A DNA stretch of 42,702 nt from Puniceicoccaceae bacterium (GTDB lineage Bacteria > Verrucomicrobiota > Verrucomicrobiia > Opitutales > Opitutaceae). This document shows positions 14,168 through 41,803 of the stretch, piece after piece. The position numbers and the translations under genes are program-made. Position 1 is the first letter of the stretch. Every line of letters starts with the position of its first letter. Below the pieces are notes generated by a model. That model was not told the DNA's origin, did not search any database, and saw nothing but the letters and a program-made list of their open reading frames with translations. Where the stretch lies: positions 1 to 42,702 of the forward strand of contig REEB01000262.1 in the NCBI GenBank assembly GCA_007695295.1. The letters are read 5' to 3'.

Positions 14168-14180
14168 GGCATCGTGGCTT

Positions 14181-15242
14181 TCAGGGCAGCAGGTCGGGGA
14201 AGAGAGGCACCCGGAGCCGGTCGGCCAGGCCCGGGGTCTCGGGTTCGCGGGTCAGTGCGCCCGTAGGGCAGGATTCGATACAGCGCATGCAACCCTTGCA
14301 GTAGCGGTAGTCGATGCCCTCCATGCGCACCCCGGCACCGTCGGCCTCCGGCCGCCAGACCAGGCAAAGGTCGGCGCAAACCATGTCGCAAAGGGCGCAG
14401 TGAATGCAGGCCTCCGGGTGAAAGACCGGGATGACACCGGTGCGCGAGGCGCTGAGGTCGTTCCAGGCCGAATTTCCGGGGCGCGGGATGACGCCGCCGG
14501 CCGGGGCGGTTTCATAACCCCAGACGGGGCCCGGCCGCACGATTGGCAGGTCGGTTTCGCCCCGGCCCACGCCTTCGAGGATCTCGTATTCGGATCCGCC
14601 ACGCAGGTAAGCGCGCTCGTTGGAGGCGACCGCATCGGCATGCTTGCCCGCAAATTCCTCCGCCAGCGCAGCCAGGATCACCTTGGGCTTGAGAAAGGGA
14701 TAGGCCGCCGTGAGCGTTCCAAGCAGCACGGCGTTGGGACGCGATTTTTCCTCGATGGCGATGCCAAGTGCATCGACCCGGATGACGCGGGCGTCTTTCG
14801 GCAGCCGGGCCAGCTCCGGCGGGGGTGGTCCGGGCGGAGCGTTGTAGATGAGCGTCCCGCCGGCCCGCAGGCCCGCCAAGCTGGTGGGCAGCCGCAGCAG
14901 CGCACCGTGAAATATCACCACCGCATCCGGACTCTCCACCGGCGAGCTGGTGCGGATCGGTTTCTCGGGCAGTCCGAGACGGACAAACGATCGCACCACC
15001 GATCCTTTTTTCTCCGAACCGTACGATGAAAAGTGGGCCCCATTGAGGCCCAGGCGAAGCACCGCCGCACCAGCCAGGATCTGCCCGGCGGCGTGTGCGC
15101 CAAGCCCGCCAATGGACTCGAAACGAATCTCAAAAAAGCGGTCCCGCACCGGAAAGTCAGAGCCGGGGCGGTAGCCGTTGCCGGCGACGGGGTCAGCTTC
15201 GGGCCGCGCGGCGAGCGGAGCGTTCTTTTGGGCTGAGGTCAT
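14181..15242 (-). CDS. 2-oxoacid:ferredoxin oxidoreductase, fused gamma+delta (ferredoxin) subunits
   Basis: This 353-residue protein has a gamma domain (about 35-215; GGLGAHAAGQILA, FSSYGSEKKGS) joined to a two-cluster ferredoxin domain (about 265-340). Cluster motifs are CIHCALCDMVC (Cys279, 282, 285, 289) and CKGCMRCIESCP (Cys315, 318, 321, 325). The first motif lacks the usual proline after its last cysteine and is followed by an extra Cys293. It completes the oxidoreductase with the alpha+beta protein encoded 13 bp downstream: electrons from thiamine-bound substrate would pass through the two [4Fe-4S] clusters. ATG 15242 starts a polar leader of about 33 residues before the fold. Confidence 0.88.
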   Translation of the reverse strand: MTSAQKNAPLAARPEADPVAGNGYRPGSDFPVRDRFFEIRFESIGGLGAHAAGQILAGAAVLRLGLNGAHFSSYGSEKKGSVVRSFVRLGLPEKPIRTSSPVESPDAVVIFHGALLRLPTSLAGLRAGGTLIYNAPPGPPPPELARLPKDARVIRVDALGIAIEEKSRPNAVLLGTLTAAYPFLKPKVILAALAEEFAGKHADAVASNERAYLRGGSEYEILEGVGRGETDLPIVRPGPVWGYETAPAGGVIPRPGNSAWNDLSASRTGVIPVFHPEACIHCALCDMVCADLCLVWRPEADGAGVRMEGIDYRYCKGCMRCIESCPTGALTREPETPGLADRLRVPLFPDLLP

Positions 15243-15273
15243 GGCATGGGGAAGGGGTTGGCGGTTTTCCCGC

Positions 15274-16269
15274 TCAGGATCTCCAGATCTGAAGGGTGCG
15301 CACGTAGTGGGAACGCCCGAAGGCCTCGGGATTGGGGCAGGAGCCCAGCCGCATCGATCCGGTCAGTTCTCCCAGCGAACGATAGCCATGGCGTTCGATC
15401 CAGTCCGCCAGCTCGCGCCGCAGTCCCTGCAGGTATTCCGGTCCATGTCCTAGAATTGCGGATACAATTTGGACCACGGAAGCACCCGCCATCAGGGCTT
15501 TGATCGCATCCTCGACCCGGTGGACTCCGCCACTGACCGCGAGATCGATCGGGAGGTGCTCGCGGAGAATGGCCAGCCAGCGCAGCCGCAGACCCAGCTC
15601 CCGCGAGTCGGAAAGCTCCACCTGGGGCACCACTTCCAGATCTTCGATATCGATGTCGGGCTGATAGGGTCGGTTGAAGAGCACCACTCCGTCGGCCCCG
15701 AGCGTGGCGATCTCAGCCGCCAAGTGGCAGAAGGAGGAGAAATACGGCGGCAGTTTCACCGCCAGCGGGATCGAGATCTGCGAACGGATTTCGCGCACCA
15801 GTTCCAGCACCCGCCGCTCCACGTCCGCGCCGCTGTCCCAAGGCCCGCCCGGCAGATAGTAGATGTTGAGCTCGAGGGCGTCGGCCCCGGCACTTTCCAT
15901 GAGAGCGGCGTTTGTGACCCAGCTGCCCACCCCGGCCCCGTTGAGAGAAGCGATCACCGGGATGCCGACGGCATCCTTGATCCGGCGCAGGTGGGCCAGG
16001 TAGGCGTCCGCGCTGACCACGTATTCCTGCCGGCGCGGCAGGTAGTTGCGGGCCTCGGCAAACGACTCTTCAAAACTTGCCCTCAGAAGCTCATCCGTGG
16101 ACGAATCGTCGCGGACCTGCTCCTCGAAGAGCGAGGGCATCACAATCGCGGCGGCGCCGGCATCCTCCAGGAGCCGGACAGTATCCAAGTTGTTGACCAG
16201 CGGGGATGCGCCGGGAATCAGGGGATGGGCCAGGGGCAGACCCAGGTAGGTGGTGCAAATATCGACCAT
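15274..16269 (-). CDS. Dihydroorotate dehydrogenase-like FMN protein
   Basis: This 331-residue TIM-barrel protein resembles class 1 dihydroorotate dehydrogenases: ASPLVNNLDTVRLLEDAGAA near the N-terminus, VIASLNG, ADALELNIYY, and the phosphate-binding end VSGGVHRVEDAIKALMAGAS with VQIVSAILGHGP. It lacks the usual active-site segment of true PyrD proteins. Proteins of this dihydroorotate-dehydrogenase-like class are known beside pyruvate:ferredoxin oxidoreductase genes, and their reaction is not established. Here it is the first gene of the redox operon, 31 bp upstream of the gamma/delta gene. It may be an extra flavin entry or exit point for ferredoxin electrons (inference). A role in pyrimidine synthesis is unlikely from context. 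Confidence 0.85.
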   Translation of the reverse strand: MVDICTTYLGLPLAHPLIPGASPLVNNLDTVRLLEDAGAAAIVMPSLFEEQVRDDSSTDELLRASFEESFAEARNYLPRRQEYVVSADAYLAHLRRIKDAVGIPVIASLNGAGVGSWVTNAALMESAGADALELNIYYLPGGPWDSGADVERRVLELVREIRSQISIPLAVKLPPYFSSFCHLAAEIATLGADGVVLFNRPYQPDIDIEDLEVVPQVELSDSRELGLRLRWLAILREHLPIDLAVSGGVHRVEDAIKALMAGASVVQIVSAILGHGPEYLQGLRRELADWIERHGYRSLGELTGSMRLGSCPNPEAFGRSHYVRTLQIWRS

Positions 16270-28689: not shown

Positions 28690-28747
28690 TTCGGACCGCC
28701 GGCAAGGCGACCGTTCGTGCCGGAGGCTCGAACGCATTTACATGCCC

Positions 28748-28891
28748 TCGAAACGACTCCGTCGTTCCGCTACGAGTCTTCACGTAGCGGAACGGTGGAT
28801 ACCGTTTCGATCACTCAAACCCCCGTAGCGGAACGGCGGATACCGTTTCGATCACTCAAACCCCCGTAGCGGAACGGTGGATACCGTTTCG
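28748..28891. repeat. Cluster of palindromic 41-bp tandem repeats with one inverted copy
   Basis: Three direct copies start at 28783, 28824 and 28865 (period exactly 41 bp). Each copy holds its own hairpin: CGGAACGGT, a GGAT loop, then ACCGTTTCG (28788-28809, 28829-28850, 28870-28891). The middle copy has one T-to-C change in the left arm. Copies one and two are separated by a conserved ATCACTCAAACCCC spacer. A fourth, inverted copy lies just upstream (28748-28774) with its own hairpin CGAAACGA-CTCCG-TCGTTCCG, so a long stem between it and the first direct copy is also possible. The cluster lies between convergent genes and ends seven bases from the thuA stop. This is the layout of REP/BIME-type elements. 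Confidence 0.9.
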
Positions 28892-28897
28892 ACCCCT

Positions 28898-29764
28898 TCA
28901 CGCCGGCAGCGGCCGCGGCGTGGCGTCGGCCGCGAGGTCGCCGAGCGCGTAGCGGATGCCGGCGTGGAAGTGACCAAGGACGGGTGGATTCCAGAAGAGG
29001 TGCGGGTTGTGGCCGAGCGAGGTATAGAAGACCCGGCCTTTTCCTTCCTCGCGAATCCAACTGATCGCGATGTCCCGGTCCGCCCGCCGTTCGGCCAGAA
29101 TGCGCCTCTCGGGACCGAAGTCACTTTTCTCAAGGTTGATCCGCAGGAGCACCCGGAGCCGGTCCCGCGAATAATGATCTTTCATCTGAAAGACTTCGTC
29201 CTGGATCTCGAAATCCTTCCCGCCGAAGGGCGCGTTGAGCGGGCTTTCCGCATCCTCCGGGGTCAGGGTAATGGTCTCTTTCGGCCCCCAGGGATGACCG
29301 CCGTTTTCATACCCGCCCAGCATCCGGCCGAATTCGGGAAACTGGTCGTAGCGCGGATACTGGCAGAAGGTCGCGGCCGCCGCATGGATACCGACAAATC
29401 CTTTTCCGCCCCGGACAAAATCGAGCAAGCCCTGCTGCCGGGCTTTGTCCTCCGTGAGCACTCCGAAGGTGTTGTTGAAACAGATCGCGTCGAAGTCTTC
29501 CAGGGCCGCAGGCTCGAAGCACGCCGGGTCATTGCTGAAAAAAGCGGTGAAACGGCCCGAGAGTTCACCGAGCCGGGCGATGGCGTAGTTGGACGGGTCG
29601 ATCGAGGGATGCCCGTCGAGAATGCGCCCGTCGCGGACATTGAGGTTGGTCACAAGAAGCCGGCGCCGGGCGCCCTTCCCTCCTCCGGCCATTCCAGGCA
29701 GCTTGAGGGCGGCTTCCACCGCCTGATCGATCACATTGCGTTGTTCGTCTCCAATTCGGTGCAT
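28898..29764 (-). CDS. ThuA-domain protein
   Basis: This 288-residue ThuA-like protein has a class I glutamine-amidotransferase-like fold. RRLLVTNLNVRDG opens the core (about residue 34). FDAICFNNTFGVLT and GGKGFVGIHAAAATF (about 115-132) form the central sheet. DEVFQMKDHYS and ISWIREEGKGRVFYTSLGHNP are the typical C-terminal blocks. The frame is open upstream to 29893, but ATG 29764 fits better because the GH43 gene ends at 29853. No signal peptide is visible, so it is probably cytoplasmic. ThuA proteins are linked to keto-sugar and disaccharide metabolism, often with Gfo/Idh/MocA enzymes. Here it is the last gene of the putative rhamnogalacturonan operon, 88 bp after GH43. Confidence 0.87.
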   Translation of the reverse strand: MHRIGDEQRNVIDQAVEAALKLPGMAGGGKGARRRLLVTNLNVRDGRILDGHPSIDPSNYAIARLGELSGRFTAFFSNDPACFEPAALEDFDAICFNNTFGVLTEDKARQQGLLDFVRGGKGFVGIHAAAATFCQYPRYDQFPEFGRMLGGYENGGHPWGPKETITLTPEDAESPLNAPFGGKDFEIQDEVFQMKDHYSRDRLRVLLRINLEKSDFGPERRILAERRADRDIAISWIREEGKGRVFYTSLGHNPHLFWNPPVLGHFHAGIRYALGDLAADATPRPLPA

Positions 29765-29852
29765 GGTGCCAGCATCGGGAAACTCACGGGCGGGACAAGG
29801 TTTGTCGCCGCATGACCAATCAAATCCCCAAGATCGCGCCGTGGCGGCCGGA

Positions 29853-31769
29853 TCACGCGCCGGGCGGCCGCAGCAGCACCCGGGCGGGCGCATCGCGGTC
29901 GCAGGTCAGCCAACCGTCGCAAAACCCCAGCTCCGCCACCTGGATGGAGCTGCGGCGGTCTTCCGGATAGGGTCGTTCATGCCGGTCGTGGGGATGGGTG
30001 AAATAGAACACAAAAGCCCTTTCGCCACTCACCACCACATCGGCATGCCGGCCCACCGCCTGGTCGTCACCACCCCGCCCCGGCTCCGCCAGCAGGAGAC
30101 CGGGCTGACGGGTCCACTGATTTGTATCCATGGACCGATACACGGCCTGCCCGGCCCAAACGTCCACCAACATCCAATACCAGCCCTGCCAGGAAAAAAC
30201 GTTCGGCCCCTCGCCGGCTTGGTCCTTGAGGATGCGGCCGCGGTCGGTCCAGCGCTCGAGGTCCGGACTTTCCGCGAGACAGATGGACTTGCCGTCGATT
30301 TCGTCGTTGTACCAGAGCCGCCAGCCGCCGTCGAGGAGTTGCAGGACGCAGGCGTCGATGACCCGGTCCGAGGTCAAATGGAGCGTTTCGCGGTGAGTCC
30401 AGCTCTCCAGATCCGAACTTTCGAGAACGGCGATCCGGCGCGGGCGGTTCCAGTCGGTGAAGATCCCCGGAACCACGCTGAGAAACATCCGGAAGCCGCC
30501 GGCATGAGCGACGATGTCCGGCGCCCAATGGCTGGCCTCGGCGCTCCCCAGTTCGGCCGGCAGGTCGATCCGGGCTTCGCCGTGGTGGCGCCACGTCACG
30601 CCGCCGTCGGCCGACTCCGCGATGCCGATGCGCGTACCGTGGACCCAGGCCACCCCGGGGACATCAGCGGGGGGTAGGTTGGCCCGCCGATTGGTGTAGA
30701 ACATCCACCAGCGGCGCCGCCGCGGATTCCAGACCACCACCGGATCGGCCGCTCCATCGAAGACCGGATCACGGAAGAGCGGCCGGGGGGCCGCGGGGGC
30801 ATCCGGCACCGGCCGCCCGAAGTCCGGCCGCCCGTCCGCCGTCCAACCCAACACTTGGGCGCGGGTGTGGCGGTTGGGATCGCGGAGTGGATCTCCGTCG
30901 ATATCCCTGTAGTTTCTGGCGTGATACACGAAGATCGTCTCTCCGCCGCCGGGCTGGCTCAGAAAGCAGTTGTGGCCGGGCCCGAACTGCCCGACGGCGG
31001 CATCGCTGCGGAAAACCGGCTCGGGAGACTTTTTCCATACGGAGGGGTCGAGCAGGTCGGCGGCGGCGGGTGCTTCCAACAGGCCGAGGCAGTAGTTGGC
31101 ATCGGTGGCGGAGGCGGAGTAGGTCAGAAAGACCCGGTCACCCTGGGCGAGAAAGGCGGGGCCTTCATTGACCCGGAAGCCGACGGTTTCCCAGGGAAGT
31201 TCGGGCTGGGAAAGCAGCACCGGCTGCGAGCGAAGGGTCGAGGGGGTTTCCAGCTCGGCAAGAAAGAGGCTGCTGTTGCCGCCGAAGTCCGGAAAGTGCT
31301 GCGCCCAGGCGAGGTAACGCCGGCCGCGATGGGCGAAGGTGGTCGCATCGAGGGCGAAGCTCTCCCAGCCGGTGCGGATCTGCCCCCGCTCGATCCATTC
31401 GCCTTCCAGCGGATCGGGGCTGGAGTTTTCCAGCACATACATGCGGATGGCCCAGATGTCCTCGGTGGCGCCGGCCGCGAAATAAATCACCCAGCGCCCG
31501 TCGATTCGGTGTAGTTCGGGAGCCCAGATGTGTGCCCCCATGATGCCGGTGGGGTGTTTTCGCCAGATGACCTTCGGGAAGGCATGGCGTAGGCCGTCGA
31601 GGGTGCGGGCGCGCCGGAGTTCGATTCGGTCGTACTCCGGCACGGTGGCAGTAAAATAGAACCAGCCGTCGTGGGCGGTGATCCATGGATCCGCCCGCTG
31701 TTCGACGAGGGGGTTGGTCCAGAGCGGCAATGACTGGGTGCCAGCGGCGCCGGTTGCGGGGCCGGTCAT
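29853..31769 (-). CDS. Double GH43-like glycoside hydrolase
   Basis: This is a 638-residue protein with two consecutive five-bladed-propeller domains of the GH43 type. Domain 1 (about 15-320) has candidate catalytic residues Asp27 (RADPW), Asp141 (ALDATTF) and Glu202 (NEGPAF), plus HIWAPELH. Domain 2 (about 330-625) has Asp342 (AADPVV), Asp472 (VIDACVL) and Glu520 (GEGPNVF), plus HWAPDIV. Both triads look complete, so both domains could be active. GH43 enzymes act mainly on arabinofuranosides, xylosides and galactan side chains, which fits removal of rhamnogalacturonan-I side-chain sugars. No signal peptide is visible, so it is probably cytoplasmic. The ATG overlaps the stop of the upstream esterase (ATGA). 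Confidence 0.85.
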   Translation of the reverse strand: MTGPATGAAGTQSLPLWTNPLVEQRADPWITAHDGWFYFTATVPEYDRIELRRARTLDGLRHAFPKVIWRKHPTGIMGAHIWAPELHRIDGRWVIYFAAGATEDIWAIRMYVLENSSPDPLEGEWIERGQIRTGWESFALDATTFAHRGRRYLAWAQHFPDFGGNSSLFLAELETPSTLRSQPVLLSQPELPWETVGFRVNEGPAFLAQGDRVFLTYSASATDANYCLGLLEAPAAADLLDPSVWKKSPEPVFRSDAAVGQFGPGHNCFLSQPGGGETIFVYHARNYRDIDGDPLRDPNRHTRAQVLGWTADGRPDFGRPVPDAPAAPRPLFRDPVFDGAADPVVVWNPRRRRWWMFYTNRRANLPPADVPGVAWVHGTRIGIAESADGGVTWRHHGEARIDLPAELGSAEASHWAPDIVAHAGGFRMFLSVVPGIFTDWNRPRRIAVLESSDLESWTHRETLHLTSDRVIDACVLQLLDGGWRLWYNDEIDGKSICLAESPDLERWTDRGRILKDQAGEGPNVFSWQGWYWMLVDVWAGQAVYRSMDTNQWTRQPGLLLAEPGRGGDDQAVGRHADVVVSGERAFVFYFTHPHDRHERPYPEDRRSSIQVAELGFCDGWLTCDRDAPARVLLRPPGA

Positions 31770-32557
31770 TGCAGGGCTTGTCCCGCTTTCGAGAGGGTCC
31801 CGGCGACCGGATTCGGTTGCAGATCGAGCAGGCCAAGGACGACCGCCTCGGCGTTGAAGCGGGCGCCCGCCTCGTTGGTGTGCGTGCGTTCGTCGGCGAA
31901 AAACGCCTCCACCGCCTCCGTCCCAAGCGCCTCGTAGCGCCGGCCGATGCGGTCATTGAGATCAAGAAAGAGCGCCCCTTCCTCCATCGCCACCGCCCGC
32001 GCCCAGCCGGCGTAGCGGTCGCGCGCGATGCGGCCGTTTTCCCAGATTTTCCGGGGCACCGGCGAGCAGATGACCGGCACTGCACCGGTGGCCTTTGCTT
32101 CGCGGATGTAGTGCCGCAGGTACCAGCCATAGGTGTGCACGACTTCCGGCTGTCCGGTGAGGAGGTTGTCAATCGCCTCGGTCTCGTCGCCGGTGCCGGG
32201 CAGGGTTCCGCGGGCGCGGGAGTCGTCGTTGATGGGTCCGCCGTCGTTGTGGCCGAACTGGATCAGCACCACATCCCCAGGCCGCAGTTCCTCCATAATG
32301 GCAGCCCAGCGACCTTCCGTGCGGAAGGTCCGGCTGCTGCGGCCGCCGATGGCGCGGTTGTCCACTTCGATTGCGGCCGGATCAAAGTAGCGGGAGATTT
32401 CCTCGCCCCAGCCCCTTTGCCCGGGCGTGCCCACCCGCACGGTGGAATCGCCGACCAGCCAGAGCCGCGGCGGCGGCGAATCGGCGCGCAGCATGGGCAA
32501 GACAACTCCCAACAGCAGGAACACAGTCCAAAACAGGGGAATGAACTCCAATTTCAT
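31766..32557 (-). CDS. SGNH/GDSL esterase, rhamnogalacturonan acetylesterase type
   Basis: This 263-residue exported esterase starts at ATG 32557, with a signal peptide (hydrophobic residues 5-22, likely cut after MLRA). SGNH blocks: Ser38 in VGDSTV, the block II glycine in AIGGRSSRTF (about 69-78), Asn104 in FGHNDGG, and His226 in DERTHTNEAGA. In the last block the acidic residue three before His is Glu, with Asp one earlier, instead of the usual DxxH. The pattern is that of CE12-like rhamnogalacturonan acetylesterases, which remove acetyl groups from the pectin backbone. It is coupled to GH43 downstream (4-bp overlap) and lies 28 bp after the symporter gene, in a locus with a rhamnogalacturonan lyase. 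Confidence 0.87.
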   Translation of the reverse strand: MKLEFIPLFWTVFLLLGVVLPMLRADSPPPRLWLVGDSTVRVGTPGQRGWGEEISRYFDPAAIEVDNRAIGGRSSRTFRTEGRWAAIMEELRPGDVVLIQFGHNDGGPINDDSRARGTLPGTGDETEAIDNLLTGQPEVVHTYGWYLRHYIREAKATGAVPVICSPVPRKIWENGRIARDRYAGWARAVAMEEGALFLDLNDRIGRRYEALGTEAVEAFFADERTHTNEAGARFNAEAVVLGLLDLQPNPVAGTLSKAGQALQ

Positions 32558-32585
32558 AAAAGGGTCGGTGCTTTGTTCGCAGCGC

Positions 32586-35069
32586 TCACCCCGCGTTGCG
32601 GCCCGTGCCAACAATGGCGATCTGCTCTTCGCTTTCCGGCCGGGCCTCCCGCAAGGTGTAGACGGTCAGGCCGCTGATGTTGCGGGGTTGCGACGGCAGC
32701 AGGAGGCTGAAGAGGTAGCCGGTCGAGAAGGTCACCACCGTGCCGACAAAGGTGAAGGCCCAGAAGGAAATGTCAGTGTAGTTCTGCAGGTAATACACTG
32801 AGACCATCCCGCAGGCCACGCCGAGGATCGCACCCCACTCGTGCGCCCGCTTCGTCAGCAGCCCAAGGGCGAAAAAACCTACAATGCCGTTGCTGATGAG
32901 ATTGGTCACCATCTGGGCCAGATCCCAGATTGAGGGCAGCTCGGACTGCGAGAGATAAAGGGCGGTGCCGGTGCCGACGATGCCGATGACGGCGGTCAGG
33001 ATCCGGCCGAGACGGGTTGCCGTCTGGTCCGTCATCTTGGGCCGGAAGCGGCGGGCGAAGTCTTCCATGCCGACGTTGGCCACCCCGCAGATGCTGCTGC
33101 TGATGGTCGACATCGTCGCCGCCAGGAGCGCTGCGATCACCAGCCCGGAAACCCCCGGCGGCAATTGCTGGGCGACGAAAAAGGGGAAGATCCCGTCGGT
33201 CTGCATGGTCGGGTCGAGCTGCTCGGGGCGCTGCCGGTAAAAGAGAAACAGGACCAGGCCAAGGGAGAAGAGGAGGATGTTGATCGGCACCGCCACCGCC
33301 AGTTGCGTCGCCACCGCGAGCTTGGTCTGCCGGAGATCCGGTGTGCACTGCACGCGCTGGACGAAGTTCTGGTCGCTGATGCCGCCGAGCGTCCCCAGCA
33401 CGGTTGTAATGAAGAGCAGGTACGCGGTCGGGTACGTCAGGTCCCAGCGCAGATCGAAGACCACCAGCTTGTCGAAGTGGCGCAGGGTTTCCCAAGTGTC
33501 GGCCGCGGGCGCATCGAGCCAATAGAGCGCCAGCGCCAGGCAGCCCACCACCGAAAGTACCATCACACCGCCCTGAATGGTATCCGTCCAGATAACGGCG
33601 GCGAGGCCGCCGAGGTAGGTGTAAATCGTCGTGACCACGCCCATGACCAGGATGCAGATCCAGATCTCGATGCCGGTGATGGCGGAGATGGCAATCGAGG
33701 GCAGAAGCATGACCGCGCCCATCCGCGCCCCCACCTGGGTGAAGCAGTAAATCGAAGCCGCCAGCATCCGTGCGGCCAACCCGAAGCGGCGCTCCAGGTA
33801 CTGCCCGGGCGTGGCGATGGCGAGCTTGCGCACCAACGGTGCGAGGATGAAGAGCGCGATCGGCAGGGCCATGACCGCATACAGACTGATCCCGAGGTAG
33901 GTGAGATCGGTGGAAAAGGATTTCCCCGGCATCGACATTAGGCTGATCGCGCTCGCCCCCGTCGCGAAGAGGCTCATCCCCGCGGCCCACCAAGGGATGG
34001 TGTTGCTGGCGCGGAAAAAGCTGTTCGTGTTCTTTTGCCGGCGCACGAAGTGGAAGCCGACCATGATCATGCCGCCGAGGTAGAGGAACACCATCGCATG
34101 GTCGAAGAGGCCGTATCCGGTTCTGGCAGGCAGCACCTCCATCGTGGTCGCCCGTATGCCATCGAGCACGTAAACCCCGGGACCGAAACCCAGCGCCGCC
34201 GGTGAGCGAAGCGGCCAGTCGGGTCCTTCGTCGAGTTCTACCCAGGTGCCGGTATACGTATGCAGCGCGAGCATGCGTGGGGCCTCGTCCGCCCAAGCGC
34301 CAAAAATAAAGATATGGGCATGACCGAAGGCGGCGGCGGTCGCGGCCCGCGGCCAATCCGGAGGCGCAGCCAGGCGGCGCCAGCCGTCGCGGGTTAGGTA
34401 GTCGGCCGCCCCATCAGAACCGGCCAAATAGAGCCGCTCCTGCGAGGCCATCAAGACCAAAGCCTCGCCCGGGTCGACGGGGGCCGGAGGAAGCACCTCC
34501 CACCCGCGCTCGGCAAACCGTAAATCAAGAGCCCAGAACCGGACTTCCCCCGTGTCGGTCCGTCCGCCCAACGTCACCACCGGCCCTTGGGCGACGCCGC
34601 CGGGATGCTCCACCGCCTCGGGCAGATCCGGCAGTGCCGCCACCGTGAGGGCTGCATCCGCCCGTGAAAGCAGGCGCACCTGCCGTGAAGGACCTTCCGC
34701 GGTCCGCCCACCGGCCACAATCAGTCCTTGCCCAGTGGATACAGCTACGGCCCCCGCGGGTGGATCTGCCAGGGAGCCCGCAAGTTCCCATGCCGAGGCT
34801 CCGTCGCGGAGCACATACACCGCCTCGGATATCCCGCCGTCGGGGTGACGCCCGCCGGCCACAATCCGGATTCCACTGTGCGCCCCCAGCGCGATCTCGG
34901 TCAGGTCGACCGGAAGGCCGGGTGCGGGGTGAAAGGCGAACCGCGCCGCCCTATCGACGGAAGCGCCCGCATCATCATCCATCCCCCAACCCGCCGGCAC
35001 CAGTACCGGCCCAAGTGCCAAGAGAAGCCAGCATAAGTACCGGCGGCTATTCACCTTGAGACGCGCCAT
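32586..35069 (-). CDS. Kelch-like propeller fused to sodium:solute symporter
   Basis: This 827-residue fusion has a signal or leading membrane segment (about 10-29), then an exported six-bladed Kelch-like propeller (about 40-310; GIRIVAGGRH, GLIVAGGRT, PVVTLGGRT, RLYLAGSDG, HIFIFGAW). From about 320 to 795 it is a sodium/solute symporter (SSS) with roughly 13 transmembrane helices; SLFATGASAISLMSMPG (about 366-382), TPGQYLERRFG and LLAATMSTISSSICGVANV are family hallmarks. Kelch propellers of this kind resemble sialic-acid mutarotases, so the domain may bind or mutarotate the sugar before uptake. ATG 35069 overlaps the upstream lyase stop (TGATG). The likely cargo is a lyase product such as unsaturated galacturonosyl-rhamnose; this is context only. 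Confidence 0.88.
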   Translation of the reverse strand: MARLKVNSRRYLCWLLLALGPVLVPAGWGMDDDAGASVDRAARFAFHPAPGLPVDLTEIALGAHSGIRIVAGGRHPDGGISEAVYVLRDGASAWELAGSLADPPAGAVAVSTGQGLIVAGGRTAEGPSRQVRLLSRADAALTVAALPDLPEAVEHPGGVAQGPVVTLGGRTDTGEVRFWALDLRFAERGWEVLPPAPVDPGEALVLMASQERLYLAGSDGAADYLTRDGWRRLAAPPDWPRAATAAAFGHAHIFIFGAWADEAPRMLALHTYTGTWVELDEGPDWPLRSPAALGFGPGVYVLDGIRATTMEVLPARTGYGLFDHAMVFLYLGGMIMVGFHFVRRQKNTNSFFRASNTIPWWAAGMSLFATGASAISLMSMPGKSFSTDLTYLGISLYAVMALPIALFILAPLVRKLAIATPGQYLERRFGLAARMLAASIYCFTQVGARMGAVMLLPSIAISAITGIEIWICILVMGVVTTIYTYLGGLAAVIWTDTIQGGVMVLSVVGCLALALYWLDAPAADTWETLRHFDKLVVFDLRWDLTYPTAYLLFITTVLGTLGGISDQNFVQRVQCTPDLRQTKLAVATQLAVAVPINILLFSLGLVLFLFYRQRPEQLDPTMQTDGIFPFFVAQQLPPGVSGLVIAALLAATMSTISSSICGVANVGMEDFARRFRPKMTDQTATRLGRILTAVIGIVGTGTALYLSQSELPSIWDLAQMVTNLISNGIVGFFALGLLTKRAHEWGAILGVACGMVSVYYLQNYTDISFWAFTFVGTVVTFSTGYLFSLLLPSQPRNISGLTVYTLREARPESEEQIAIVGTGRNAG

Positions 35070-37831
35070 CACTGCCTGCCCTCCGGTGCGTGATCGCCCG
35101 CCAGTGCCAGAACTTGGATCGCGGCCAGGCCCCACTGCGAGGATGCGTTGCAGGACATCCAAGGCGTCTCTTCGACGGGGTTGAGCACGGCCGGTCCTTC
35201 CTGCCGGTTGAACGCAGCCCGTTCCCGCAGGGGAAGTCCCGCGGCCGCCCCCAGAAATTCCTCCCAGGCGCGCCGCAGGAGGCGGGCGTCGTCGCGGCGC
35301 CGCCCGGCATAGGCGGTCAGTCGACTGTGGGCCTGCCCGAGATTGAGGCGGCCGAGACTGCGGCCGAGGCGGGCCTCCTGCTCCGATCCGCTCGCATTGA
35401 ACAACTCGCAATACTCCACCCAAGCCCGCTCGAAGCCCTCGTCGTCGACGAGATCGATGAGTTCCGCGGCGATCTCCACCAGGCCGAAGACCGCGCTCAG
35501 GTGCGAAACACCGATGCCGGGCTCGCCCGCGGGAGTGAAGGCCCCGCTGTGGGCGTTGAAGGTGGAATCCCGCGTGAAAAAGCCGTGCGGCAAGGCGCCG
35601 ATGGTGCGCATGGAAGAGACCAGTTTGTCCCGGATGATGGTGTCCCCGGTACGTTCCCACTCCGCCAGCCAGGCGGCCGCGAGCGACCCCCAGTCCGTGC
35701 CAAGACCGATGCTGAGACGCTCCGGGTCGGTCGAGGGCGGCGGTCCACGGCGAATCTTGCGGATCGGATCGAGCCGGGTGAAGGCATGGTCGGAATCGAC
35801 GAGGTCGCGCATCAGATCCCCCACCCGCTCGTCTGCGGTCAGAAAGTAGTAGATCCTCCGATACGCCGCAGTGCTGATCCGCACCTGCTTGGCGCTGCAG
35901 CCCCAGTGCTGAACGTTGTGGCGCGTGCCCAAGCCTTTGAACCGGCCGAGGTGGTAGACGTCCACCTCGCCGGTGTGGCGGGTCATCGCTTCCGCAAGCC
36001 GGAAGACGTCGGCCCGCCCCGAGCGGAGGTAGGCATACCAGAGCCAGAGGTCGGGCGAGAGTTCCGAATTCGCCCAGGCGAAGCCGCCCACGTCATAGCG
36101 CCAGACCTTCCGATCCGGGTCGTAACTGTGCATGAAATCCCCGTAGTCCCAGAATCCATACCAGCGGTGCTGTTCGACTTGGTTCATCCAGGAAGCGAGG
36201 AGTCGGTCGTGCATCGTTTCGATTCGCGCCTTGAGCGGATGGCCGCGGTCCGGCAGGCTCCAGGGGCCGAAGACGACGCACGCGTGCAGGTGCTCGGGAG
36301 CGGCCGCGAGCAGCGGCGGTGTCCTCACCGTCTCGGCCATGGCGGCAAACTGCTCCCGCGCCGGGGTCGCGTCGTGCACCCAGAGCATGAGTTCACTGGT
36401 ACGGGCCTTGCCGTGGGGGGTGCCGAAACCTTCTTCGTAATCCTCGTAGGTGATTTCGAGCCCCTCGAGTTCATCCCGGTGGGTTTCCATGCCCATGCCG
36501 TCGTGGTAAAAGCGCAGGTCCATCGGTGGGGCATCCGGCGCCCAAAGCCAAAGGGTTAGCCGGGCTTCCCCGGTATCCGCATTCCGGATATCAAGCTGGG
36601 TCGGATGGCGTTGCCAGAAATCCTTCATCCCCAGACTGAGCCCGCCGGAAATCCCGCCGATATAGGCCAAGCCCGAAGCACGCCGTCCCGCGCCGGCGGG
36701 AATCCAGCCGTGTCCGGCTTTGGTGCGCTTGCGGATTTGAAAGCCGTCCGCCGAGAGCTGGGCCAAGGTGAAATCCCCCCAGGCGGGTATCAGGTGCAGG
36801 CGATTGCCCACGCGGGGATCGAAGTCTTCCACCGGTCCTGTCGGGAGTCCGGCAACTTGGGCCTCCCGGACCGCGGCGCCGGGATCGCGGCGCAGCCCGG
36901 TCAGGCCGCGGACGGCTTCACCGAAAAGGCCGTCACCTTCCCCCGCGAAGCGTATGTGCCGGTCGTGCGGCTCGTCAGTCAGCGGCACCGAAAAGCGGAT
37001 GCCGAGACCACGGATAAAATCGCGGTGCTCATCGCCGTCATAGACGAAGGAATGCACCAGGCGGATGGAGGCGGCCCCGGCATAAAAGTAGAGACGCACC
37101 ACGAAGGGCAGCCAGGTGCGGTCCCCCTGCACGAGCCGGTGACTGCCTTCCAGCTTCACCACTGCCCGCACAGGCCCGTCCTGCTCCACCACCGTCCTGC
37201 TCAAGACGCTCTCACTGGCTTCCTGCCCGACCTTCCCCGACTCATCGGGATCGCCCTCCGCCAAGGCCACCAAGCGCCCGTCGCGGGCAATCTCACGACC
37301 GTCGCGAACGAGGCTTTCGATGAGTGCATTCCCGCTGCGTGGTATCCGAACCGTCATGACACCGATGTCGATTTCGATGCCATCGGGCCGCGTGCGCACC
37401 ACCACCGGCCTGCCCGCCGCCGCAGGGTTGGCTCCCGCCACCAGTTCCAGGGTCTCGGCCGAGCCCGCTTCCGCCGGGAGGGCATGAGCGGTCCATTTCA
37501 ACGAGCCGTCGGGCCAATAAGCGGTCGGCCAGCTCTGGAGCGGTAGTTCGCCACCCATGGGATCGCGAAGTCCGAAGGGAGTTCCGGGGGGATGGATGCC
37601 CTCCGGCCAGGAAACCCCCCAGGTGGTGCCGGGCCGCACCCGCGGGATGCCACCCTCCAGCCAGCGGAGTTGGGCACGATGGGATGAGACCGGGCCGGGA
37701 ACCGGCTCAGGGGACGGTTTGAAACTTTCCTCCATGGGTTGAGAGGCGGCTAGTTGACGCAGGGGGAGCGCCCCCGCGGCCAAGGCACCGACTTTGACAA
37801 ACTGGCGGCGGGATACGGAACGTATATTCAT
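35069..37831 (-). CDS. Tat-exported exo-rhamnogalacturonan lyase family protein (PcRGLX/YetA-like, PL26 type)
   Basis: This 920-residue protein has a twin-arginine signal (SRRQFVKVGALAAGA, residues 7-21) and is therefore exported folded. The N-terminal beta-sandwich (about 50-330) has the LRWLEGGIPRVRPGTTWGVSWPEG opening and SLKWTAHAL seen in the PcRGLX/YetA family. The large C-terminal part (about 530-910) is alpha/alpha-barrel-like, with HRWYGFWDYGDFMHSYD, WANSELSPDLWLWYAY, HVQHWG-type and GTDWGSLAAAWL motifs. Family members of polysaccharide lyase family 26 cut the rhamnogalacturonan-I backbone by elimination, releasing unsaturated galacturonosyl-rhamnose. It has a strong Shine-Dalgarno sequence, unusual in this window. 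It lies 72 bp after a Gfo/Idh/MocA gene and overlaps the symporter start by one base. Confidence 0.85.
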   Translation of the reverse strand: MNIRSVSRRQFVKVGALAAGALPLRQLAASQPMEESFKPSPEPVPGPVSSHRAQLRWLEGGIPRVRPGTTWGVSWPEGIHPPGTPFGLRDPMGGELPLQSWPTAYWPDGSLKWTAHALPAEAGSAETLELVAGANPAAAGRPVVVRTRPDGIEIDIGVMTVRIPRSGNALIESLVRDGREIARDGRLVALAEGDPDESGKVGQEASESVLSRTVVEQDGPVRAVVKLEGSHRLVQGDRTWLPFVVRLYFYAGAASIRLVHSFVYDGDEHRDFIRGLGIRFSVPLTDEPHDRHIRFAGEGDGLFGEAVRGLTGLRRDPGAAVREAQVAGLPTGPVEDFDPRVGNRLHLIPAWGDFTLAQLSADGFQIRKRTKAGHGWIPAGAGRRASGLAYIGGISGGLSLGMKDFWQRHPTQLDIRNADTGEARLTLWLWAPDAPPMDLRFYHDGMGMETHRDELEGLEITYEDYEEGFGTPHGKARTSELMLWVHDATPAREQFAAMAETVRTPPLLAAAPEHLHACVVFGPWSLPDRGHPLKARIETMHDRLLASWMNQVEQHRWYGFWDYGDFMHSYDPDRKVWRYDVGGFAWANSELSPDLWLWYAYLRSGRADVFRLAEAMTRHTGEVDVYHLGRFKGLGTRHNVQHWGCSAKQVRISTAAYRRIYYFLTADERVGDLMRDLVDSDHAFTRLDPIRKIRRGPPPSTDPERLSIGLGTDWGSLAAAWLAEWERTGDTIIRDKLVSSMRTIGALPHGFFTRDSTFNAHSGAFTPAGEPGIGVSHLSAVFGLVEIAAELIDLVDDEGFERAWVEYCELFNASGSEQEARLGRSLGRLNLGQAHSRLTAYAGRRRDDARLLRRAWEEFLGAAAGLPLRERAAFNRQEGPAVLNPVEETPWMSCNASSQWGLAAIQVLALAGDHAPEGRQ

Positions 37832-37840
37832 CTTTCCTCC
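37832..37840 (-). promoter_or_regulatory. Strong ribosome binding site of the lyase gene
   Basis: On the minus strand GGAGGAAAG stands immediately before ATG 37831. It is one of the few clear Shine-Dalgarno sequences in the window and fixes this start. Confidence 0.75.
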
Positions 37841-37903
37841 ATGGTTGGGTTCTCACCAGACAATCCGTATGGCATGGTGGGCGCAGGCACCGGGGACTCC
37901 CGG

Positions 37904-39157
37904 TCAGACCCTCGCATCACCGGGCAGAACTGTTCCAGAGACAGCCTCGGAAACCCGTGATGATGGCGCCAGCAACTCCGCCAAGCGGGGGAAAAACCAG
38001 TCTTCGAGTTTGCCCTGCCGGATGCCTTCGCCGACACACTCCCGCAGCCCGCGGATGGAGGGTACGACCAAGCCGTCCGGAGACGCCGGCTTCCACTCGA
38101 CCCGGTTCGCCTCGATGGGGCGGATGGAAGCGCGGGTGTGAACAGCTTCGATAAACGCGGTATGCGCCTCCGCCAGTTCGGTTCCACAGATAAAGACCGA
38201 GGGATCGCGCAACCGCCGGAGTACGGCGGAAAACATCGCCTGCCGGGAGGCCGCGGGACCACCCAGGATACGTTCCTCCGGCTCGGCGCCATTCGGGTAC
38301 AGGCAGCAGACTTTTTCATGGCGCCACTCGGCGGTGCCACTCTCACCCAGCACGGTGATTTCAGGCTCAAGCGGGTCCGCGCTGCAATGGCTGACAAAAA
38401 ACTCGAAATGCACGCCCTCGGGTGACCTTCCGGCAACAAAGCCCGTATCGAAGGTTTCGATGGCGTGAGCACGCCAGAGGCTGAGGCTCGTTGGCTCAAC
38501 CCGGGCCGACTTCCCGGGCTCCGCTCCAGCGAGAAAAAAGCTCAGGTTGACAAAGTGGGCGAAGGCATTGTTCAGCGGCGAATCCCGGACGGGTATGGTG
38601 TCGACCACGGACTTGCCGGCCCACGGGTTGCGTGCGTAGTAGGAGGCGGGCCGCGGCCACAACCCCACCATCCGCACCCGCCGCACTCGTCCGATGACCC
38701 CTGAGCAGAGCGCTTGCTTCAACCAATGGGTTTCCGCGCGGTACATGTCTTGGAATCCGACCGCCACCCAGCGGCCGAAAGAGCGTTCCGCATCCCGGAT
38801 GCGGCCCACCTCCGCCAGTGAGCCCGCGAGCGGCTTTTCGACCAACACATTCATCCCCGCTCGCAACGCCGCCACCGTCATCCGCGCATGCCACTGGATT
38901 CCTGTCGGGATCAGGCAGAGATCGATCCGGCCCGCCTCTTTGTCCATCATGTCTCCGTATTCCGGATACACCCGGGTCCCGAAGTCCTGCATCTCCCGAA
39001 GGGCGGTTTTCGCCTCGTCAGGGTTGATGACAACAGCCGCAGCCAGGCTGATCCGACCCTCCCGGACCGCCTTCCGGACAAATTGCCAGTACACCGAGCC
39101 GTAGCCGGTGACTCCGATAAGGGCAAGGCGGGGAGGTGGGCTCGACGGTTGGTACAT
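37904..39157 (-). CDS. Gfo/Idh/MocA family oxidoreductase (first gene of the pectin locus)
   Basis: This is a 417-residue NAD(P)-dependent oxidoreductase. The Rossmann opening is LALIGVTGYGSVYW (residues 11-24), where GVTGYG stands for the usual GxGxxG. VEKPLAGS with the catalytic Lys108 follows at 106-113. DTIPVRDSPLNNAFAHFVNL (about 188-207) is in the substrate domain. It is longer than the two paralogues at 3513-5717 and only distantly related to them. It starts the minus-strand six-gene block with the lyase 72 bp downstream. With ThuA at the other end of the block it may act on a keto-sugar or an unsaturated sugar derived from pectin (inference). No Shine-Dalgarno sequence is visible. Confidence 0.87.
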   Translation of the reverse strand: MYQPSSPPPRLALIGVTGYGSVYWQFVRKAVREGRISLAAAVVINPDEAKTALREMQDFGTRVYPEYGDMMDKEAGRIDLCLIPTGIQWHARMTVAALRAGMNVLVEKPLAGSLAEVGRIRDAERSFGRWVAVGFQDMYRAETHWLKQALCSGVIGRVRRVRMVGLWPRPASYYARNPWAGKSVVDTIPVRDSPLNNAFAHFVNLSFFLAGAEPGKSARVEPTSLSLWRAHAIETFDTGFVAGRSPEGVHFEFFVSHCSADPLEPEITVLGESGTAEWRHEKVCCLYPNGAEPEERILGGPAASRQAMFSAVLRRLRDPSVFICGTELAEAHTAFIEAVHTRASIRPIEANRVEWKPASPDGLVVPSIRGLRECVGEGIRQGKLEDWFFPRLAELLAPSSRVSEAVSGTVLPGDARV

Positions 39158-39270: not shown

Positions 39271-39299
39271 AAAGCCGCCGGGGAGATCCCGGCGGCTTT
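39271..39299 (-). terminator. Rho-independent terminator after the beta-strand surface-protein gene
   Basis: A perfect 12-bp stem (AAAGCCGCCGGG at 39271-39282, CCCGGCGGCTTT at 39288-39299) with loop GAGAT lies about 70 bases after the stop at 39371. On the minus strand the stem ends in TTT followed by TC, a short U tract. It also isolates the pectin operon promoter region from upstream transcription. Confidence 0.75.
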
Positions 39300-39370: not shown

Positions 39371-41803
39371 TCAATCCCGCTCGGCCACCACGCGCCAGAA
39401 GCCGCGGATCGCCTCGCCGATCTCGTCTGTGAAGGTGAGGTCCTCCCCGGTGCCGGATTGGGGGGGACCGATGGCCACATAGGGATCATTGAGCTGGTGG
39501 TCGGCAAAAGATTCAAGAGTGGGAACTACCAAGGTGGGCGGTATGATGGTGTCGCCGGAGAACGCATCGACCTGGCCGAGATTGGCGTTTTCCTTGGTGG
39601 CGATGGAGAACTCTCCATCCTGGTGGTTGGTATCAACCACGATCACAATGGTGACCAGCTCATTGGAACTGCCCCGGAGAAAGTCACCCAGAGGGACGAG
39701 GTCGGGATCGGTGGTGTAGGTGACACCTGAGCCCATGTTACCCAGAGACATCACTCCGAGCTGGGTGACGGCGGCGGTGTTGAAGTTCACCTCGCCGAAA
39801 CCGGCTGGTTGAAAAGCACCGAAGTTGTTATAGGTAATGCCGCCTTCACCGGACTCAATCCAATTGTCGAGCGTCTCATCAGTCACCCCGTAGAAGGCGA
39901 AATCACGGGTGCGGTTGGCCAAGGGGAAGAACACGCTGATGGTGGCTTCATCCAGAAGATGGTCCTCATCAAGTTCGGAGATATCGAAGCGAATGACGGC
40001 GATCTGCTGGCGGGTGCCGAAGAAGTTCCGGAGGTTCATAGTCCCGTTGGCGCCGTAGTTGGTGTCGGGATCGCGGATGGTGTCGGTGCCGACATCGGCG
40101 TCCGCTCCATTGCCGTCGGCGGTCGTGACCCGCGTGTGCATGATGGTGGGCACGCCGGGCGTGTTGGAACGTTCGACCCGATAAGCATAACCTTCGACGG
40201 ACGGCACCGTCATCAAGACTTGGTCGCCATCACGAACGAGGCTGCTGATGAGGACGTCGATTGCGACCGGCGGTGGCTCACCGTCGATGCCGGGAACAAC
40301 GGTGCCGTTGTTCTCCCATCCCTCGGGCAGGACCGCGTAGGATCCGGAGTAATCGAAGGTGCCATTGTTCACGAAGGTGCCTTCCACTTCCAGAAAGGCC
40401 CCGTTTTGGATCCGCAGGGTGCCGTTGTTGACAAAGTCGCCCGCAACTTGGAGCCGCCCCGCCGAGCCTGCGATGACGATCTCACCGTCATTGGTCACGT
40501 TGCCGGTGATGGAGCCTCGGCCGGTCAGGCTGCCTCCGGAGAGGACATTCATGCCTGCAATCGTAAGAGTGGCGCCGGAAAGATGGATTTCCGCACCATT
40601 GTGAACGGTCATCCCGTGGTTGGGAGAGGCGACGATGCGGTTGAACTGGAGCACGCCTTCGAAAACCGCGGTGGCGCCGCCGTAGGTGGCATTGGCGTCG
40701 ACGATGACCCGGCCCGGGCCGTGCTTGCTGAGGGTCCGGGTGCCGGCCTGCGCGTTGAGGGCGCCTCCGGGGCTGAGGATGAGATCACCCTGGGTGTTGT
40801 ACTGGAAAAGCTGAAGCCCGCCGGAAGTGTTGCTGGCGCGGATAAACCCAGGACCGCCAAGGCGGACATTCTGTGCGCCCACGTTTTCCGTGACCAGCAC
40901 AGAGGATACCGTAATAGTGCGTCCTCCCGCTGCGGTATCAACCAGCCACTCGTCAAAATTCGGATTGTGGGTATTGAAACGAAGATTGAAGACGCCTCGG
41001 TTTCCGGGAGCGCGCCCGCCGTAGGAGGAGGTCTCCGTGAAGTCCATCAGGAAGGTGAAAGCGGCGGCGTCACCGGGGAGATTGGGCAGGGTCAGGGGCG
41101 ACTCCGGATCTTCGGGATCCTCAGGAAAGATCCCGGGATTGGGTGTGTAGGAACCGGGAACCACTTCCATGCCGGGCAGAACCCGCGCGTTGAGAAAATT
41201 GTCCTCGAGGGCGGCGAAGTCGGTCCGGTTATGGATGGCGTAGAGCTGGGACCCGGCATTGATGAAGCCTCCCTCCAACCAATCCGTGATACCTGTATAA
41301 ATAACATTGCCGGTCGGCTCGATCTCAAACTCCAACCCGACTGCTCCGCGACGGGAAAGGTTGTTGATCCTGAGGGTGCGGCCGGAGGCCACTTTGATTT
41401 TTTGTGATTCCAAAAAGTCAATCGTGCTTCCGATGGTGAGATCCGCGGTGGCTTCGCTCAAGTCGATGCCGCCTGAGCCGAGGATGAGCGTACCACCGCT
41501 GATGGTGACGTTGCCGCCGGGATTGAGAATCCGGACACCACGCCAGCCCACGTCGCCTCCCAGGGGCGAGGCGTTGGGGCCGGTGACCCGATTGTCATAA
41601 ACGGCGATGGTATCGGCATCGGCCACCACGCCGTCCACCCAGGAATCCGCTGTGTTAAGCGACTGGGTGTTGTTGGCTTTGAAGGTGAATTGGGCGGAAA
41701 GGGCCGGGGCGAAACCGAGGGCAGCGCCAAGGGTCAGCCCGAGGGCGAGGCGTCTGGTCTGCAACAGACGTTGTGTCTTGGAGGAGGTGGTGGTTTTGTT
41801 CAT
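39371..41803 (-). CDS. Autotransporter-associated beta-strand surface protein with nested DNRLRE domain
   Basis: This 810-residue exported protein has a long signal peptide (about 1-37, cut after LSA). Residues about 40-500 are a beta-helix-like passenger with repetitive ISGGTLILGSGGID, TLSKHGPGRVIVDANATYGGATAVFEG-type strands and NNGT turns (autotransporter-associated beta-strand type). From about 512 to the end is the surface module (GYAYRVERSNTPG ... YVAIGPPQSGTGEDLTFTD ... GFWRVV). It is split by about 205 residues (554-760) that look like a DNRLRE/CBM96-type carbohydrate-binding domain (DTNYGANGTMNLRNF, IAVIRFDISEL, GGITYNNF, LVTIVIVVDT). No barrel domain and no PEP-CTERM signal are seen, so it is not a classic autotransporter. 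It ends at a strong terminator. Confidence 0.85.
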   Translation of the reverse strand: MNKTTTSSKTQRLLQTRRLALGLTLGAALGFAPALSAQFTFKANNTQSLNTADSWVDGVVADADTIAVYDNRVTGPNASPLGGDVGWRGVRILNPGGNVTISGGTLILGSGGIDLSEATADLTIGSTIDFLESQKIKVASGRTLRINNLSRRGAVGLEFEIEPTGNVIYTGITDWLEGGFINAGSQLYAIHNRTDFAALEDNFLNARVLPGMEVVPGSYTPNPGIFPEDPEDPESPLTLPNLPGDAAAFTFLMDFTETSSYGGRAPGNRGVFNLRFNTHNPNFDEWLVDTAAGGRTITVSSVLVTENVGAQNVRLGGPGFIRASNTSGGLQLFQYNTQGDLILSPGGALNAQAGTRTLSKHGPGRVIVDANATYGGATAVFEGVLQFNRIVASPNHGMTVHNGAEIHLSGATLTIAGMNVLSGGSLTGRGSITGNVTNDGEIVIAGSAGRLQVAGDFVNNGTLRIQNGAFLEVEGTFVNNGTFDYSGSYAVLPEGWENNGTVVPGIDGEPPPVAIDVLISSLVRDGDQVLMTVPSVEGYAYRVERSNTPGVPTIMHTRVTTADGNGADADVGTDTIRDPDTNYGANGTMNLRNFFGTRQQIAVIRFDISELDEDHLLDEATISVFFPLANRTRDFAFYGVTDETLDNWIESGEGGITYNNFGAFQPAGFGEVNFNTAAVTQLGVMSLGNMGSGVTYTTDPDLVPLGDFLRGSSNELVTIVIVVDTNHQDGEFSIATKENANLGQVDAFSGDTIIPPTLVVPTLESFADHQLNDPYVAIGPPQSGTGEDLTFTDEIGEAIRGFWRVVAERD

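Follow-up and report, generated by a model that had tools for sequence, protein, structure and literature searches.

The region with which Bacillus subtilis uses rhamnogalacturonan I (RG-I) relies on ABC import, PL11 endo-lyases and GH105, and its PL26 member is YetA; a PL26 match in B. subtilis was also found here. Another relevant group is formed by the 3-keto glycoside pathways, to which ThuAB of Agrobacterium belongs. A BT2157-type DUF1080 3-ketotrehalose hydrolase and LacABC systems have also been described for such pathways (PMC9007349). PL26 loci have been little studied in Verrucomicrobiota, and no description of the gene core considered here, Gfo-(RhaM)-PL26-KelchSSS-SGNH, was found in the literature searched, whose only mention of PL26 in Opitutaceae is an annotation (PMC12613999).

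The locus lies on a 42.7 kb contig (C261) of a 4.6 Mb genome (G000) that is 98.6% complete, and the whole of this contig is the stretch of DNA analysed, referred to as the window. As its named relatives belong to Opitutia, Opitutaceae and Puniceicoccaceae, the genome is taken to be that of an Opitutales-type member of Verrucomicrobiota. Six ORFs, all on the minus strand, run in the 5' to 3' order Gfo/Idh/MocA oxidoreductase (hereafter Gfo), PL26, Kelch/SSS, SGNH, GH43-type and ThuA, with intergenic distances of 72, -1, 28, -4 and 88 bp down the operon. These ORF coordinates and spacings bear out the six-gene minus-strand layout with overlaps and short gaps proposed in the initial annotation, and Pfam backs the family assignment of all six genes. 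Overall, we give a probability of roughly 0.7 to the reading that they form an RG-I backbone utilisation operon with the division of labour proposed below. Genes for GH105/GH88, SusD or TonB were not found among the window ORFs scanned (some short ORFs fell outside the scan), so that the earlier claim that the window lacks TonB/SusCD and GH105/GH88 held among these ORFs. A hairpin on the minus strand (39271-39299; fold -27.8 kcal/mol, z -6.05) sits between the operon and a same-strand upstream gene and is probably the terminator of that gene and the boundary of the operon, while a consensus promoter scan at the operon gave no match. The upstream gene (39371-41803) encodes an exported-looking 810-aa protein with a sub-threshold CBM96 match. 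At the other end, directly past the ThuA stop codon, three 41-bp direct repeats and an inverted copy with the potential to form a hairpin occupy positions 28743-28892. The tandem repeat unit reads GTAGCGGAACGG[T/C]GGATACCGTTTCGA..., and its core was found neither elsewhere in the window nor, as an exact 12-mer, in the other loci compared. A further gene group at 11840-16269 encodes pyruvate:ferredoxin oxidoreductase-like and dihydroorotate-dehydrogenase-like proteins.

The PL26 protein (35069-37831, minus strand) has three PcRGLX domains and matches the structure of PcRGLX (5xq3) as a full-length, three-domain protein (821 bits, residues 50-914), and it carries the Tat motif SRRQFVK, which recurs in most Opitutales relatives checked. 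Its predicted identity as a PL26 rhamnogalacturonan exolyase is firm, and motif and structure match together support the previous description of a Tat-exported PL26-like exo-lyase. For the SGNH protein (31766-32557, minus strand), CE12 membership was judged by a GDS block and a C-terminal His block aligned to the rhamnogalacturonan acetylesterase RGAE (1deo), and both blocks (GDST and H-T-x-x-x-G) align in the comparison (1.4e-30). A CE12-like rhamnogalacturonan acetylesterase is thus firmly predicted, and its N-terminus, hydrophobic in the manner of a signal peptide, points to its export. Compartments were assigned by inspection of N-termini, by which Gfo, the GH43-type protein and ThuA have no signal peptide, in agreement with the claimed contrast between an exported lyase and esterase and signal-less GH43, ThuA and oxidoreductase. 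The disaccharides had been thought to be released outside the cell; periplasmic rather than extracellular release is more likely because Tat export by itself ends in the periplasm.

The gene that follows PL26 (32586-35069, minus strand) is firmly predicted to encode an N-terminal Kelch-like propeller fused to an SSS sodium:solute symporter (PF00474, 131 bits), and the cut-off of the SSS superfamily model TIGR00813 was passed (191.3 vs. 184). The Kelch part scores below the mutarotase cut-offs (36.4 vs. 243.2 for TIGR03548 and 37.7 vs. 45 for NANM). From gene context alone, we infer that the substrate is an RG-I-derived sugar. The symporter had been placed "in place of" a SusCD system; however, SSS proteins serve the inner-membrane step, and the relative L063 has a TonB receptor beside the same operon. 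As an inner-membrane carrier, the SSS protein leaves outer-membrane entry to a TonB receptor or porin that must be encoded elsewhere. The GH43-type gene (29853-31769, minus strand) had been annotated as a double GH43 protein. Its N-terminal half resembles GH43 exo-arabinofuranosidases of the 3AKF type (exo-1,5-alpha-L-arabinofuranosidase; candidate subfamily 26), with 430-451 bits to GH43 structures (9nxj, 3akf) in a comparison at family level. The C-terminal half matches 7zei (Ch_Gaf159A, 283 bits) and keeps all three catalytic residues of GH159, D19, D142 and E190 in Ch_Gaf159A numbering, as read by hand from the alignment; mutation of any of them kills Ch_Gaf159A (PMC9278983). We therefore rejected the double GH43 in favour of a predicted cytosolic GH43-GH159 fusion, whose second half by homology is a member of the alpha-L-arabinofuranosidase/beta-D-galactofuranosidase family.

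Conservation was assessed in the 80 loci of a PL26 scan, taken with their flanks, and in 20 further regions from family and order genomes; L063, L105 and L032 correspond to genomes G114, G167 and G178 (identical coordinates), respectively, and L130 to G039. Gfo is directly upstream of PL26 in L033-L036, L063, L066, L105, L115, L120 and L130, and in about half of the Gfo-PL26 loci a 104-aa L-rhamnose mutarotase, RhaM, stands between them (directly so in L033, L035, L036, L063 and L130). A Kelch-SSS gene comes after PL26 in L032, L036, L063, L066, L105, L125 and L130, and before it in the Latescibacterota locus L089. The complete core is shared with L036, L063, L066, L105 and L130. Most core-bearing loci are flanked by a divergent LacI regulator, and a TonB-type receptor is adjacent in L063 and L130, with the Plug domain confirmed for L063. 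The window operon has no adjoining RhaM or LacI and closes with GH43-GH159 and ThuA, an ending not seen in this form at any other of the PL26 loci examined. The earlier proposal of an RG-I operon in which exolyase and acetylesterase are exported, a symporter is encoded and trimming is cytosolic is supported, and its core is kept, with RhaM, in relatives. More distant Gfo homologues (486-516 bits) mostly sit in RG-I-type neighbourhoods with PL11, GH106 rhamnosidase, RhaM, SGNH, SSS and TonB genes.

Some loci stood apart in these comparisons. In L155 (genome G043), a Gfo homologue of 487 bits adjoins an SSS symporter amid five sulfatase genes, and our guess is that the target may be a sulfated rhamnose-uronate polymer such as ulvan. 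L034, from a record titled Akkermansia muciniphila, is an Opitutales-like PL26 locus (65% identity) and may be a misnamed MAG. Two PL26 genes per locus were seen in L079, L082, L083, L084, L087, L094 and L108 (Gilvimarinus, Kribbella, Hamadaea), adjacent to each other in actinobacteria.

Co-occurrence was counted in 273 genomes of the order, 23 with a full PL26 and 16 with Gfo at 480 bits or more. Gfo is specifically tied to RG-I genes: PL26 is present in 15 of the 16 Gfo genomes compared to 8 of the 257 others (Fisher p 4e-18, relatedness not corrected), and nine Gfo-PL26 pairs are adjacent, within 3.3 kb, and five more lie within 12-42 kb. Of the 23 PL26 genomes, 22 gave a GH88/105-family match, among them every one of the 15 that also have Gfo. 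Gfo and GH105 therefore do not generally stand in for each other, and Gfo as a general replacement for GH105 was rejected. Outside the phylum, PL26 genomes of Nonomuraea, Actinoalloteichus and Arthrobacter gave no PF07470 match, which shows that there are PL26 loci without GH105; the PL26 neighbours in Nonomuraea include GH42, an AP_endonuc_2 protein and an aldolase-dehydrogenase fusion, of which the latter two suggest a route by a rhamnose-isomerase-like enzyme and rhamnulose aldolase. KduI is present in 18 of the 23 PL26 genomes and missing from G000 (the window genome), G114, G167, G178 (only 67% complete) and G216. In the first four, PL26 has the Kelch symporter next to it, a trend that is suggestive only, because G039 has both the Kelch symporter and KduI.

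In the window genome, the check for a GH105/GH88 system beyond the window led to just one divergent gene, the single GH88-family match of the genome search (contig C162; 101.9 bits, covering only profile positions 154-341). It lies ~2 kb from a GH43 gene, and its product has a signal-like N-terminus, a first half outside the family profile and a second half that matches YteR-type GH105 structures. An Asp in its ILID segment is spaced approximately as the catalytic Asp of GH105 should be; it was not put at that position by the automatic alignment, and the assignment of the ILID Asp as a putative GH105-type catalytic residue is our own reading. Neither KduI (PF04962) nor a PL11 endo-lyase was found in this genome, and its one RhaM (contig C75) stands without other recognised sugar genes. 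With a divergent GH88-like protein and no KduI or PL11 detected, the canonical RG-I follow-on route looks depleted here. ThuA (28898-29764, minus strand; PF06283, 107.4 bits vs. a cut-off of 33.4; an alternative start at 29893 would overlap the GH43-type gene) has its closest relatives in the order at 52% identity; among them is a fusion with an AP_endonuc_2 TIM barrel, while HEAT-repeat fusions near Gfo-type genes were also seen. The best homologues in the order sit in loci without PL26, phmmer found no match in the other PL26 loci examined, and ThuA was rejected as a conserved PL26 partner. Since the other PL26 loci examined all lack it, it makes a poor and weak general candidate for disaccharide cleavage. 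The proposed ThuA-oxidoreductase route does not stand as a general one, given this absence and the GH88/105 genes of the Gfo+PL26 genomes; within the window genome it is possible, in view of the divergent GH88-like protein, the missing KduI and the AP_endonuc_2-fused ThuA relatives.

Gfo (37904-39157, minus strand; PF01408/PF22725) scores above the PF01408 cut-off, and the lysine of its EKP motif is K108. The usual catalytic triad of Gfo-type enzymes is K-D-H (PMC7535918). In the alignment, the PL26-linked orthologue group retains the Lys and His and has N197-x3-H201 where D-x3-H is usual, with Asn at the Asp position as in WlbA, with which it shares both N-x3-H and a WxRPxxY...WxG...DG stretch. 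WlbA, whose structure was crystallised with the uronic acid nucleotide UDP-GlcNAcA, is also the nearest structure to the AlphaFold2 model of Gfo (mean pLDDT 87.4; Z 34.2, rmsd 2.6, 326 aligned). Glucuronide-3-dehydrogenase (Z 32.4) and NAD-dependent sulfoquinovosidase (Z 30) are further neighbours; inositol dehydrogenases, glucuronide-3-dehydrogenase and others come within 1-2 Z of the WlbA score, and L-arabinose 1-dehydrogenase and other C1 sugar dehydrogenases are also among the structural neighbours. The NCBIfam model for the BT_2158 glycoside 3-dehydrogenase gives 29.6 against a cut-off of 750. Because K and H are kept, the Asn is WlbA-like and the structural neighbours are of this kind, Gfo is likely a sugar dehydrogenase, and oxidation of C3 of a uronosyl residue is plausible.

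In the pathway that we propose, the acetylesterase and PL26 would deacetylate RG-I oligosaccharides and free unsaturated galacturonosyl-rhamnose disaccharides in the periplasm, some of which may still bear arabinose or galactose. The Kelch/SSS protein would import them over the inner membrane with sodium, its Kelch part perhaps binding or mutarotating the reducing rhamnose, and the cytosolic GH43-GH159 protein would strip arabinofuranosyl (or galactofuranosyl) decorations. The next step would fall to Gfo, most likely an NAD-dependent sugar dehydrogenase, with either the imported unsaturated disaccharide or a monosaccharide derived from it as the substrate, and the galacturonosyl-rhamnose bond would be cleaved by the C162 GH88-like protein, by Gfo with or without ThuA, or by another enzyme. 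It is conceivable that GH43-GH159 and ThuA are a separate downstream module for arabinan or another glycan and that the RG-I unit ends with the fourth gene, as conservation in relatives covers only the first four genes and a gap of 88 bp precedes ThuA. However, there is a 4-bp overlap between the SGNH and GH43 genes, and RG-I commonly bears arabinan side chains; we regard such a split as unlikely.

Two accounts of Gfo itself have to be weighed. Gfo may be a monosaccharide dehydrogenase, for C1 oxidation of L-rhamnose or L-arabinose or for reduction of 4-deoxy-5-keto-uronate, with the exported GH88-like protein cleaving the disaccharide. The position of RhaM between Gfo and PL26 in five loci, the C1 sugar dehydrogenases among the structural neighbours and the signal-like N-terminus, YteR-type second half and nearby GH43 gene of the GH88-like protein all speak for it. 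Nevertheless, Gfo accompanies PL26 and RG-I loci rather than general rhamnose genes, the GH88-like first half is off the family profile, and an exported enzyme of this type would cut before import and leave little need for disaccharide uptake; we hold this account to be a tentative one, somewhat short of even odds. An alternative explanation is that C3 of the unsaturated galacturonosyl unit is the site of oxidation by Gfo, which would work either by itself, as an NAD-dependent glycosidase, or ahead of ThuA as lyase or hydrolase, giving a cleavage that is free of GH105 and a product that bypasses KduI. This agrees with the linkage of Gfo to PL26 across genomes, the WlbA-shared motifs, the structural neighbours WlbA, glucuronide-3-dehydrogenase and NAD-dependent sulfoquinovosidase and the AP_endonuc_2 fusions among ThuA relatives, as well as with G043, in which Gfo occurs without PL26 or any GH88/105 match, and with the Kelch-symporter genomes without KduI, including the window genome with its divergent GH88-like gene. 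It is doubtful, however, in that every Gfo+PL26 genome of the order has a GH88/105-family gene, G039 combines the same core with KduI, ThuA is missing from the other PL26 loci examined, the BT_2158 model is missed by far and a common fold does not establish function. The version in which NAD-dependent oxidation at C3 lets the PL26-linked Gfo subfamily cleave or activate unsaturated galacturonosyl-rhamnose, independently of GH105 and KduI, and ThuA was recruited as a partner in this lineage, is likewise doubtful. Our literature search on Gfo or ThuA acting on unsaturated rhamnogalacturonan found nothing on point. If Gfo did cleave the disaccharide, oxidative glycoside cleavage would reach pectin lyase products. 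We consider the locus a real and coherent RG-I operon, with an oxidative cleavage route as a possible feature. With unsaturated galacturonosyl-rhamnose, its conserved four-gene kit gives both an uncharacterised Gfo subfamily and a Kelch-SSS transporter a defined substrate.

Compared to the core of its Opitutales relatives (L036, L063, L066, L105 and L130), the window operon has the first four genes in the same order and orientation, but the relatives mostly add RhaM, LacI and sometimes TonB, where the window adds GH43-GH159 and ThuA instead. NanM-like mutarotase/SSS fusions likewise combine a Kelch propeller and SSS in a single protein, whereas the window protein stays below the mutarotase cut-offs and its context is RG-I, not sialic acid. 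As in 3-keto glycoside pathways, one operon holds a sugar oxidoreductase together with a putative partner for cleaving keto-glycosides; Gfo is far below the cut-off of the specific 3-dehydrogenase model. With the yes/yetA region of B. subtilis, the window shares PL26, rhamnogalacturonan acetylesterase and side-chain enzymes for RG-I use, yet it has neither PL11 nor an operon-borne GH105, and is set apart by its SSS symporter and linked Gfo.
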